A DNA stretch of 38,961 bases from positions 176,183-215,143 of the forward strand of contig CP070662.1 of the NCBI GenBank assembly GCA_020355185.1. Direction: 5' to 3'. Below, one piece after another: positions 2,158-30,722 of this stretch (positions are counted from its first letter, which is position 1; the number at the start of each line of letters is the position of its first letter). Position numbers and translations under genes: made by a program. This stretch comes from an archaeon. Its GTDB lineage: Archaea > Aenigmatarchaeota > Aenigmatarchaeia > PWEA01 > JAGHBM01. The notes beneath the pieces are model-generated. The model did no database searches and was not told the DNA's origin. It saw only the letters and a program-made list of their open reading frames with translations.

Positions 2158-3402
2158 ATGAACCTCAGGAAGATTTTTGATTATTACTCCCAGGACGGGA
2201 TTCTTGAGAGGATTGTCCGGAGCGCTAGAGACCGCGAGGTTTCCTTCTCCAAGAGGGACGGCTCCCATCTTTCGCGGCCCAATACGCTTGTCTACCCCAG
2301 GGACGTCTTGGAAATGGTAAAGAAGGGGGCGGTGAGCTTCCACGGTTCGGTGGAGCGCTGGAGGAATCCCATGCAGCTGGGTACTAGGCTCAGCGAGAAG
2401 GAATTAAACGAACTGAGGAAAGGCTGGGACCTTATAATAGACATAGACTCCTCAATAGGCCTTGAGGCCTCAAAGCTTGCCGCCGTTCGCGTCCTTTCCT
2501 TCCTCAGGAAACACGGGATAAATAAACCGGGCCTGAAATTCTCCGGAAACAGGGGGTTCCACATAGGCATACCCTGGGAGGCTTTCCCCAGAAAGGTTGA
2601 TTATACAGCAACAAAGGACCAGTTTCCCCACCTACCGCAGGTTATAGCCACCTTCATCAGGGCCAAAATAAAGGACGACCTCATGCAGGACCTGATAAAA
2701 ATGAAGGGCTCCCTCAGAAGCCTGGTGGAGGATCTTGACCGCCACCTGGAGGAGCTGACTCCTTACATTTTCGTGGACATAGAAAAGGACTGGGGCTCCC
2801 GCCACCTCTTCAGGATGCCCTACACAGTGAACGAAAAAACCTTTTCCGAGAGGAAATGTCTGGTCACCCTTCCATTAAAAAACCCGGAGTCCTTCAAGCG
2901 TGACGATGCCTCTATAGAAAGAATAAAACCAAAACTCGATTTCTTCCGGGAAACGGAAAGGGGCGAGGCGACCAGCCTGGTGATAGATGCCATGGACTGG
3001 TACTCCGAGCGCAAGAAAGAGGAGAGAAAGAAGCCCAAGGGGAGGATAAGGAGGACCAGAAAAGTCCCCGAGGAACGCTTCCCGCCCTGCATAAAGCTTA
3101 TACTCAGGGGACTTTCCGACGGCAGGAAAAGGAGCGTCTTCATTCTGGCAAACTTTCTTGCCAGCTCCGGCTGGAGGAGGGAGGACGCAGAGAAAAGAAT
3201 TCTGGAATGGAACAGGAAGAACAGTCCGCCCCTGAAGGACAACTACATAAAGACCCAGCTCAAGTGGTTCGAGAGACAGAGGCGCAACCTCCTCCCGCCA
3301 AACTGCGACAACCAGCAGTTCTACAAGTCCTTCGGGGTGTGCAAGCCGGACAGCAAGTGCAAGAAGATAAAAAATCCGGTGGTTTATCCATTTAAGAAAT
3401 AG
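2158..3402 (+). CDS. priS: DNA primase, PriS catalytic domain fused to PriL-type Fe-S C-terminal domain
   Basis: Replicative primase, which synthesises primers for chromosome replication. Numbering from the ATG at 2158 (414 aa): catalytic DID at about 95-97, SGNRGFHI at 129-136 (nucleotide-binding R/H), and a third acidic residue near D207 followed by SRHLFRMPYTVNEKT. A basic linker (about 285-306) leads to a domain with four cysteines: PPCIKLIL (C311), LPPNC (C383), GVC (C395) and SKC (C401). That pattern matches the 4Fe-4S domain of the large subunit PriL. A one-chain PriS-PriL primase is established for Nanoarchaeum equitans. No zinc-knuckle cysteine cluster is seen in the PriS half. The ATG at 2158 is preferred to the GTG at 2152 because GGGTG lies upstream. 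The last codons (GTT TAT CCA TTT) are AT-richer than the rest and are repeated in diverged form at 4227-4251. Confidence 0.92.
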   Translation: MNLRKIFDYYSQDGILERIVRSARDREVSFSKRDGSHLSRPNTLVYPRDVLEMVKKGAVSFHGSVERWRNPMQLGTRLSEKELNELRKGWDLIIDIDSSIGLEASKLAAVRVLSFLRKHGINKPGLKFSGNRGFHIGIPWEAFPRKVDYTATKDQFPHLPQVIATFIRAKIKDDLMQDLIKMKGSLRSLVEDLDRHLEELTPYIFVDIEKDWGSRHLFRMPYTVNEKTFSERKCLVTLPLKNPESFKRDDASIERIKPKLDFFRETERGEATSLVIDAMDWYSERKKEERKKPKGRIRRTRKVPEERFPPCIKLILRGLSDGRKRSVFILANFLASSGWRREDAEKRILEWNRKNSPPLKDNYIKTQLKWFERQRRNLLPPNCDNQQFYKSFGVCKPDSKCKKIKNPVVYPFKK

Positions 3403-3406
3403 AATT
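3382..3406 (+). repeat. Copy A of duplicated primase 3' end
   Basis: In-gene copy encoding VYPFKK and the TAG stop plus AATT. It matches 4227-4251 at 21 of 25 positions. All four differences are third-codon-position changes (GTT/GTC, TAT/TAC, CCA/CCC, TTT/TTC). See copy B. Confidence 0.8.
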
Positions 3407-3425
3407 GTAGCAGCTCACATTCGTT

Positions 3426-4142
3426 TCATGATTTTTTAAGTATTAATTCAAATGCTTCTTTATGTTTTTCCAGGGAATCCCGTACTTTCAACTCATATTT
3501 TACATAATGGTTATTTACAAACACAATTTTACTAATACCTTTTACAACCTTTGTAATGAATTCTGATTTCTCTTTTCCTTTCAATCCACTTTGCTTATGT
3601 AATCCTAAATACTGATGATATACCAAATTACCGTCAAGGAATATTATTGGAGAATTTTCTAAACCCGTCTTACCAAAAGCGTTGCCTACACCAATATCTT
3701 TTTCATCACTAAATAATTTGCTTAATATTATGTTGTTGGGCGGTAGAGTTCTAGCCTGATTGCGAGTTAAATCAGGTACATCACTTAAATCGTATTTAAA
3801 GGATATATCCACTCCCCAAGCTTTTTCCCAATATCCTACATCTTGTATTCTTCTTTTTCTAATTAGTATGGTTGTTCCGTCATTACGATAAATAAGTTTA
3901 TCATTTTCGTCATGGAATCCTTCTCTAAAATACGGGTGACCCATATCCATAAATTCTAATCCTTGGTATACGTATTTTGTTTCAGGACAAGTAACAGTGG
4001 TCAAATCAGCGTCATAAATTCTAGCAAATCCCATAGTGCTCATTTCTCTAGTTAATCCCTTTTCTAAATCCAGAATATTTACATCTCTAGACAATTCTCT
4101 CGCTCTTTCCGCATGTTCAACAAATACTGCATTTTTATTCAT
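3426..4142 (-). CDS. AT-rich ORFan, convergent with primase
   Basis: About 238 aa, not recognised. It is soluble and mixed-charge with no membrane segment or obvious catalytic motif; I see no integrase R-HxxR-Y or DDE pattern. The ATG at 4142 is chosen over the GTG at 4151 because GGTGA stands 5 nt before it. Base composition is clearly more AT-rich than the primase or purB. The gene with its promoter lies exactly between the two copies of the primase tail (3382-3406 and 4227-4251), suggesting it arrived as a unit. A TATA-like box (minus-strand TTTATAAG, near 4180-4188) and a 25-bp palindrome precede it. The next ORFan (4251-5297) shares the promoter motif CTGAAAGGT. Confidence 0.65.
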   Translation of the reverse strand: MNKNAVFVEHAERARELSRDVNILDLEKGLTREMSTMGFARIYDADLTTVTCPETKYVYQGLEFMDMGHPYFREGFHDENDKLIYRNDGTTILIRKRRIQDVGYWEKAWGVDISFKYDLSDVPDLTRNQARTLPPNNIILSKLFSDEKDIGVGNAFGKTGLENSPIIFLDGNLVYHQYLGLHKQSGLKGKEKSEFITKVVKGISKIVFVNNHYVKYELKVRDSLEKHKEAFELILKKS

Positions 4143-4154
4143 TAAATTCACCGA

Positions 4155-4179
4155 ATTACTATTAATTAGTAATAGTAAT
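4155..4179. promoter_or_regulatory. 25-bp palindrome between TATA box and start of ORFan 3426-4142
   Basis: Perfect 10-bp arms, ATTACTATTA and TAATAGTAAT, separated by ATTAG. It lies just downstream of the minus-strand TATA-like box (about 4180-4188) and 13 bp before the ATG, a typical place for a repressor operator. Confidence 0.5.
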
Positions 4180-4226
4180 ACTTATAAACCTTTCAGGGAT
4201 GTCGTAAAATTTAAATAAAAACGTTT

Positions 4227-4251
4227 GTCTACCCCTTCAAGAAATAGAATT
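4227..4251 (+). repeat. Copy B: orphan remnant of a primase 3' end
   Basis: Encodes VYPFKK-stop in GC-richer codons. Upstream in-frame codons extend the resemblance: IKTFVYPFKK here against IKNPVVYPFKK in the primase. No primase sequence lies further upstream, so this is a detached tail. It ends at the stop codon of the minus-strand gene 4251-5297. This fits an ancestral primase end displaced by insertion of about 845 bp. Confidence 0.7.
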
Positions 4252-5297
4252 TAAGTGTAAGCCGCGGTTCCTCCATAGTCACCTTTGTTTATCTTTATGT
4301 TAACGTTTTTATTTTCTTTCTGGAAGTGCAGGAACAAAGGCAATAAATCATCCGCGTACACTATTCCCGAATTACTGCCTTTGGTTAATTTCACGAATGT
4401 ATTTTTCGTATACGGGTATATTTCTTTTTCGTTATTAATTTTGTCTATATCAGTCTCGAAATAAATCTCTTCAACTTTTATCTTATAATCATTAATAATT
4501 TTCTCCAAAAGAGCAAAAATATCATGTCTCTTTTCGCTGGCGTCAAAACAACTTTTTAATTCAAATATTTCGTCCTTCGCTTTTTCTAATACAAACTCTT
4601 TCTCACCACACGAAAACCTGCTTATCTGACCAACTTTACTGATTACTAAAAAACCAGAACTTACTCCAAAGCTTACATTCTTCACAGCTTGGTCTTTAAT
4701 GTCTTCATCTTTCGTGAATAACATTTTTTTATAATCACCCTCATTAAACACATGCTTTGGCTTAAGTTTATACTTGAAATCCTTGATGTTTTTGAAAGTT
4801 ATTGCCTCATCTAGGCTCACCTTCTTGTTTCTTTTGTACAAATCCTCTTTCATTAATTTTTTATAATCACTTCTCTCCATATAATCTTTATCAGGAAGCA
4901 ACTCAAGTTCCCTTTTGGCCTTTTTTTCATTAATCAAAAGGTCTTCATTAACGAAAAAATCGGAATTTCCTATAAGTCCAAAGATTAAGGAAACGCTAGG
5001 AATGACGTTCTTGTAGGACTTATGCTCTAAGATAAGGTTGGACTTGTAATTATCCTGAACATCAATGCCGTATATCTCAACTCTGTCAACGGTTTCGTCC
5101 GTAACTTTAAGAAAAGTGTTCACGGTATCGTTAATGAAGTTCTCCTTGCCGTCATTCATATCCGAAAAGCATTTATTATATACTCCGCAAGGCAAGGTAA
5201 GATATTTGTACTTGTCCCGGAATCCTTTACCTTCATATTTCAATACCAATACGCCATTTCCCACATTTACGGTGCTAATGAGGTTAGTCTTGAGCAT
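4251..5297 (-). CDS. AT-rich, lysine-rich ORFan
   Basis: 348 aa, not recognised. It is rich in Lys, Asn, Asp and Glu, with no membrane segment or known motif. The start ATG at 5297 has a strong GGTGAGG site. The C-terminus abuts the detached primase tail (copy B), so this gene was probably the original convergent neighbour of the primase. Upstream, CTGAAAGGTATTTAA resembles the promoter of the ORFan at 3426-4142. Low GC and lack of recognisable family suggest horizontally acquired accessory content. Confidence 0.65.
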   Translation of the reverse strand: MLKTNLISTVNVGNGVLVLKYEGKGFRDKYKYLTLPCGVYNKCFSDMNDGKENFINDTVNTFLKVTDETVDRVEIYGIDVQDNYKSNLILEHKSYKNVIPSVSLIFGLIGNSDFFVNEDLLINEKKAKRELELLPDKDYMERSDYKKLMKEDLYKRNKKVSLDEAITFKNIKDFKYKLKPKHVFNEGDYKKMLFTKDEDIKDQAVKNVSFGVSSGFLVISKVGQISRFSCGEKEFVLEKAKDEIFELKSCFDASEKRHDIFALLEKIINDYKIKVEEIYFETDIDKINNEKEIYPYTKNTFVKLTKGSNSGIVYADDLLPLFLHFQKENKNVNIKINKGDYGGTAAYT

Positions 5298-29897: not shown

Positions 29898-30722
29898 ATG
29901 AGCGACGGATCGGACAAGAAGGAGAATGTCATCACATACGAAACCTTCAGGAAGTTCCAGAGACTGGAGAGGGATAACGACAACCTCCAGAAGCTCCCGG
30001 GAGATTTCTTCCAGTCATGTGCGGAGTGGATTGACCGCAAGGGCAGGATGTATCAGGAAAACAAGGACCCCATGGTTCTCAAGGAAATAGAAAACGTTAT
30101 GTCCATCATAAGGGACATCCTCGACAGGAGGGAGAGGAAGCTGCTTCTCATGGCCATGCATGCGGTAAGGAGCGATGCCGCGCCGCAGAACCTTCACCTT
30201 CACGAGGAAAAGCACTTTGACTCGATTGTGGACCACCTGAAGGACATGAGGGTTAAAATCCTAAACATTATAAAAGGGTCGGATGAGGTCGGTAAGACCC
30301 AAGAAAAGGAGGAAACCACGGAAGAACTGGAGAAGGAATTCAAGAAGGAGATTAGGAAGGCGGCAAAGAAGTCGGCGGCAAAGAAGCCCGAACTGCCCAA
30401 GCAGGAAACCCTTCCCAGGTCCAGACATGAAAAGCTAATCCAGGAGGAGCCGGAACCGCAGCCGGAAGCTAAAGAAGAACCGGATAAGAAGCCCGATATA
30501 GAGAAGGAAGAAAAACCGGAAGAAGCCGGGGAACAGGTCCTCCCCAAGATGGTGGAGCCCGAGGGATACAAACTGATCAAGATTCTGGAAGAGGTGCCCA
30601 AGTTCCTGGGGACGGACGAAAAGACCTACGGGCCTTTCAAGAAGGATGACATGGTCACGGTGGAGGAAAAGATTGCCGAACTTCTTGTAAACAAGGGAAA
30701 GGCCGAGCTGGCCAACAAGTGA
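29898..30722 (+). CDS. Archaeal GINS subunit (Gins51-like)
   Basis: 274 aa. The GINS complex joins MCM and GAN/Cdc45 in the replicative helicase. N-terminal A domain is 14-110 (YETFRKFQRLERDNDNLQKL, EIENVMSIIRDILDRRERKL). A long Glu/Lys/Pro linker (about 125-215) leads to the C-terminal B domain KILEEVPKFLGTDEKTYGPF, ending in AELLVNKGKAEL. A-then-B order identifies the Gins51 type. It is followed by eL44, eS27 and aIF2-alpha, a gene order common in archaea. Confidence 0.88.
   Translation: MSDGSDKKENVITYETFRKFQRLERDNDNLQKLPGDFFQSCAEWIDRKGRMYQENKDPMVLKEIENVMSIIRDILDRRERKLLLMAMHAVRSDAAPQNLHLHEEKHFDSIVDHLKDMRVKILNIIKGSDEVGKTQEKEETTEELEKEFKKEIRKAAKKSAAKKPELPKQETLPRSRHEKLIQEEPEPQPEAKEEPDKKPDIEKEEKPEEAGEQVLPKMVEPEGYKLIKILEEVPKFLGTDEKTYGPFKKDDMVTVEEKIAELLVNKGKAELANK

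Follow-up and report, generated by a model that had tools for sequence, protein, structure and literature searches.

The archaeal genome analysed here contains the tail of the primase gene priS twice, in two synonymous versions with a single AT-rich gene (ORFan1) between them. Overall, the best reading of this arrangement is an att-like insertion of the kind known from the 3' ends of protein-coding genes, here without an integrase of its own. We consider it very probable that DNA was inserted together with its own allele of the primase tail, and we favour, with moderate confidence, site-specific recombination as the route of entry. The fuller account towards which we lean is that a one-gene unit of about 845 bp joined the 3' end of priS by tail-to-tail recombination, probably performed by a tyrosine recombinase. 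The window, i.e. the whole stretch of DNA that was analysed, spans 39 kb of a host genome that consists of one contig of 832,779 bases (Table 1). The closest relatives with a name belong to Candidatus Aenigmatarchaeota, within DPANN. Orthologues of priS were found in 39 of 40 relatives. GINS51 directly follows priS in order-level relatives and is separated from it here by 26.5 kb (window 3403-29897), which indicates that the spot downstream of priS is open to change in this family; the genes that follow priS differ from genome to genome within the family.

Table 1 Features of the priS locus and of the recombinase array in the host genome (positions refer to the window unless a contig is named).
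Feature	Position	Strand	Basis or remark
Fused small/large-subunit DNA primase (here priS), 414 aa	2158..3402	+	Pfam DNA_primase_S and DNA_primase_lrg
In-gene repeat copy GTTTATCCATTTAAGAAATAGAATT: last six codons (VYPFKK), stop, AATT	3382..3406	+	Sequence
DNA between the tail copies	3407..4226	.	GC 31-33% vs 45-50% around; missing from the G002 junction
ORFan1, 241 aa, convergent to priS	3426..4151	-	GC 32%, GC3 0.23
Palindrome before ORFan1, 10-bp arms, 5-bp loop	4155..4179	.	
TATA-like box GTTTATAAGT for ORFan1	4180..4189	-	Seen in sequence
Orphan repeat copy GTCTACCCCTTCAAGAAATAGAATT: VYPFKK, stop, AATT in synonymous codons	4227..4251	+	Sequence
ORFan2, 348 aa, AT-rich	4251..5297	-	Distant homologue abuts the priS stop codon in G002
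GINS51 gene	29898..30722	+	Pfam Gins51_C; adjoins priS directly in order-level relatives (synteny)
Tail versions of the two copies: in-gene GTTTATCCATTTAAG; orphan GTCTACCCCTTCAAG			Sequence
Recombinase array	G000 C1:76348-80317 (L241:15340-19001, L109)		Just downstream of an aIF2-gamma-like gene

We confirmed the second copy of the 25-bp primase tail that had been reported in the initial annotation. The two copies agree at 21 of 25 positions, and all four differences (GTT/GTC, TAT/TAC, CCA/CCC and TTT/TTC) are synonymous and lie at third codon positions (p = 0.003 for random placement in 25 nt). The 13 identical bases of the repeat (AAGAAATAGAATT) form its right half, four of them being untranslated. 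Matches of at least 21/25 are expected 5e-5 times per 3 kb of the same composition and 0.002 times when allowing for 39 genes, a set of 1000 Markov-generated sequences modelled on the 2-kb region gave 19/25 at best, and the remaining gene tails in the window reached at most 17/25 in their downstream DNA. The annotation had conceded that many chance matches of like quality would undo its case; a degenerate pattern of the tail was found at exactly two places in the 832,779 bases, those of the two copies. By contrast, the alignment that it had extended to upstream codons (IKTF/IKNPV) does not exceed the level of the AT-rich background and is not supported. The priS tail site was absent from the viral contigs searched. 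Since the repeat is far above chance and its differences are exclusively synonymous, both copies are, judged by their sequences, derived from working alleles.

On a stop-anchored nucleotide scale, this case scores just 15.5, a value that A-rich tails equal, and it therefore rests on the composition-specific statistics given above. An explanation by chance resemblance or by an assembly artefact would draw on this score and on a loose amino-acid tail scan of 1,699 genes in 1.56 Mb of DPANN loci, which returned six matches; as tails swapped between loci gave as many (3-9 per round, i.e. per about 1,700 genes), the count from that scan was discarded. We nevertheless regard this explanation as improbable, as the 25-mer is not a simple A-rich tail, its expectation in 3 kb is very low, the silent-only pattern is independent evidence, and the genome is a single contig.

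The putative inserted unit measures 845 bp, extending over 3382-4226 or 3407-4251 according to which tail is native. As the annotation had stated, the interval holds a single AT-rich gene with a palindrome and the box GTTTATAAGT in front of it, the latter being a putative archaeal promoter element of ORFan1. The AT-rich block is larger than described there and extends from about 3403 to about 5400, because the next gene (ORFan2) is likewise AT-rich. Searches of Pfam, PHROGs and NCBIfam, of phage records, of viral and GTDB contigs and of related genomes revealed no relative of ORFan1; weak matches in three genomes (G089, G014 and G040) were rejected as unrelated proteins or frame-broken noise, and structure models of ORFan1 and ORFan2 were unusable (mean pLDDT 30 and 31, respectively). 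The alien composition of ORFan1 and its lack of relatives both count in favour of an insertion. An ordinary transposon whose target-site duplication mutated later would also leave a short direct repeat around an AT-rich gene, and we consider it very unlikely: the duplication is not exact, and its four mismatches in 25 bp are all silent (p = 0.003-0.006), while an unselected orphan copy would mutate at any codon position. Furthermore, neither terminal inverted repeats at the insert ends nor a transposase within the insert were found.

An apparently uninterrupted junction, of the kind for which the initial annotation had proposed to search, was seen in G002, which belongs to another genus of the same family. 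In this genome, a 301-aa protein is encoded convergently to priS and ends exactly at the priS stop codon, and neither ORFan1 nor a second priS tail was found. The protein is weakly homologous to ORFan2 (22% over 280 aa, pairwise E 1e-8), and ORFan2 is probably the older convergent neighbour of priS. As priS of G002 abuts this homologue and has neither ORFan1 nor the second tail beside it, the simplest and most likely history is that priS lay next to ORFan2 before a unit of about 845 bp with ORFan1 and its own tail allele came in. The weakness of the homology counts against this history, as does G001 of the same genus, where a different short convergent gene follows priS. Also counting against it, no second priS tail was found in the 9-20 kb downstream of priS at 20 further loci from the same class, nor at 80 distant priS loci.

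Similar tail duplications were identified in other DPANN genomes, where cases were kept if they stood clear of chance by nucleotide score or by gapped alignment; one at L088 (RIKKGL and stop) was at chance level and was dropped. In G095 (archaeon SMBSF31; L097), the priS tail is duplicated over 145 nt with 78% identity around a 174-bp insert, and the PCNA tail over 36 nt, 19 of them identical in a row, around a 0.9-kb insert with one gene. In G219 (C20, L205/L279, minus strand), a second copy of the Top6A tail (KLKNQKTWLP and stop) lies 2.58 kb downstream and differs from the first by three synonymous changes; the 2.5-kb insert carries several small genes. These three cases scored 24.5-27 on the stop-anchored nucleotide scale, on which nearly all controls stayed at about 16 or below, the high control scores being attributed to orthologous neighbours. 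In G105, the second priS tail stands out in a gapped alignment (E 1e-11). Three of these four cases have identical cores of 14-19 bp, and no recombinase was noticed in their inserts by inspection. Tail duplications occurred at 3 of about 155 priS genes and at 2 of about 1,544 other genes (p 0.006, or 0.04 minus the discovery case); this excess is only suggestive because the loci had been picked around priS. In G095, each of the two outer ends of the conserved divergent PCNA-priS block (L097:3871-7860) carries a duplicated gene tail.

The G002 junction and these parallel cases uphold that part of the initial proposal in which incoming DNA brought an allele of the primase tail. Its further part, according to which the tail now in the gene was imported and the orphan copy is the displaced original, is possible, with codon usage favouring it and the codons of sister species and the identical 13 bp favouring the in-gene copy as native. 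The reported AT-rich codons of the in-gene copy and host-like codons of the orphan were borne out by a codon-usage test, which favoured the orphan tail under the usage of priS (ln LR 4.2) and of 23 host genes (ln LR 2.4), and the in-gene tail under that of ORFan1 (ln LR 3.8). On the other side, the priS tail of the sister species G001 reads TAT CCA TTT as in the in-gene copy, and TAT CCA is common to G002 and G003. Native in-gene codons would be expected if strand exchange fell in the identical right half of the repeat, since codons to the left would stay. The relatives of G095 gave no polarity for its own pair, being about equally near to the orphan and the in-gene priS tail.

An alternative explanation is homology-facilitated exchange, in which the priS 3' end of a related low-GC archaeon would have entered with ORFan1, the other end being joined illegitimately inside the resident tail, now the orphan. 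The ORFan1-like codons of the in-gene tail and the priS-like codons of the orphan fit this explanation, as do the divergence of the two priS tails of G095, which is at between-species level, and the duplicated tails at both ends of its PCNA-priS block. We consider it the less likely course, since the in-gene codons recur in sister species, random joining would not be expected to give 13 identical bases at the right with four untranslated ones among them, and the junction lies near the stop codon in every case.

The statement in the initial annotation that an integrase is missing holds for the insert and for the window, where no recombinase was found, a point that weighs against our preferred reading of site-specific recombination; it does not hold for the genome, which encodes one full tyrosine recombinase about 100 kb from priS (C1:79 kb). 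This protein of 392 aa (C1:79141-80316) has a C-terminal zinc ribbon, and its closest curated models are XerA/XerD and the integron integrase, all below cut-off. A fragmentary tyrosine recombinase match is located at C1:799526-799858, and no serine resolvase was found in the host genome. The tail of the recombinase gene (KELQAGK and stop) is itself repeated in frame 1,464, 1,778 and 2,790 bp downstream, and in one of these copies all six differences are at third codon positions (p 2e-4). Between the copies lie small AT-rich genes, most of them encoded on the other strand, and promoter-like modules (TTTAAATC) are repeated there. The array looks integron-like in layout, and its geometry resembles that of the priS locus. 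However, the repeats of the array (C1:76.3-79.1 kb) and the priS sites showed no alignment beyond background, which also counts against the reading, and a role of this recombinase in trans at priS is a conjecture for that reason. In the related recombinase loci examined, no copies of their own tails were found within 1.5 kb. Beside the cassette array, a perfect inverted repeat with 59-nt arms and a masked spacer of 70 nt was observed (L241:14306-14493).

In the reading that we favour, a site on the unit resembling the primase tail would recombine with the chromosomal priS tail, with strand exchange taking place inside the 13 identical bases. Because the tail on the unit would have been synonymous and in frame, the exchange would preserve the primase and place a second tail beyond the insert. 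A tyrosine recombinase would be the most likely agent, either supplied in trans or formerly encoded by a larger element that has since been reduced. An excised circular form of the unit would have its right end linked to GTAGCAGC through one copy of the tail. In this account, the insertion itself, the enzyme and the point of crossover are inferred.

Insertion at the 3' end of a protein-coding gene is already known, and the missing recombinase and the tiny cargo are the peculiarities of the present case. The e14 prophage inserts into the 3' end of icd in E. coli with restoration of the reading frame, according to the statement in PMC6379469 that cites Hill et al. 1989. The e14 element is similar to the priS unit in using the 3' end of a protein gene of essential type, whose last codons come from the element and whose former tail persists beyond the insert as a pseudo-copy; likewise, the insert at priS is flanked by direct repeats of the end of the gene, which is intact. 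It differs in being a prophage that encodes its own integrase and has a tail of 163 bp, whereas the priS locus shows a single ORFan and a repeat of 25 bp, with no element-encoded integrase. In Thaumarchaeota, 14 of 68 elements are located at the 3' ends of protein genes, one with a 13-bp att site (PMC6563490). These are also archaeal, with short att repeats and a frame restored by element-derived sequence; unlike the priS unit, which has no recombinase, they are large (PMC6563490), and primase is absent from their list of targets (PMC6563490). A review of archaeal tyrosine recombinases mentions neither primase nor DPANN (PMC8371274). Integron cassette arrays, including archaeal ones, consist of small one-gene cassettes of unknown function (PMC9668308), similar to the layout at C1:76-80 kb; unlike integrons (PMC9668308), the priS locus has neither a recombinase nor a common site, and the host recombinase does not reach the threshold of the integron-integrase model.

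A broader, speculative and rather doubtful generalization is that small integrase-less DPANN cassettes, often with one gene, enter the 3' ends of the essential replication genes priS, PCNA and Top6A and of the recombinase's own gene, each carrying a silent in-frame variant of its target tail, and that a zinc-ribbon tyrosine recombinase such as that encoded at C1:79 kb of the host genome moves them in trans. If the recombinase array were the engine, this would explain how reduced genomes gain orphan genes without breaking essential ones. For the barely studied mobile DNA of DPANN, a stop-anchored tail repeated downstream in frame with silent changes only offers a signature of insertions, and priS, PCNA and Top6A are named here as landing sites.

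Two further observations concern the inserts at priS in other genomes. The 174-bp insert of G095 (L097:7543-7716) turned out to belong to a family of dispersed repeats found in that lineage, which are non-coding, 175-200 bp long and contain two hairpins. Copies are present in seven further genomes (G105, G106, G099, G104, G103, G098 and G110), with 2-8 matches per genome, and the right end of the repeat is often at the stop codon of a gene. In G105 (L113), the insert between the two priS tails, in the first 102 bp past the priS stop, consists of small hairpins spaced by TTCCAC.
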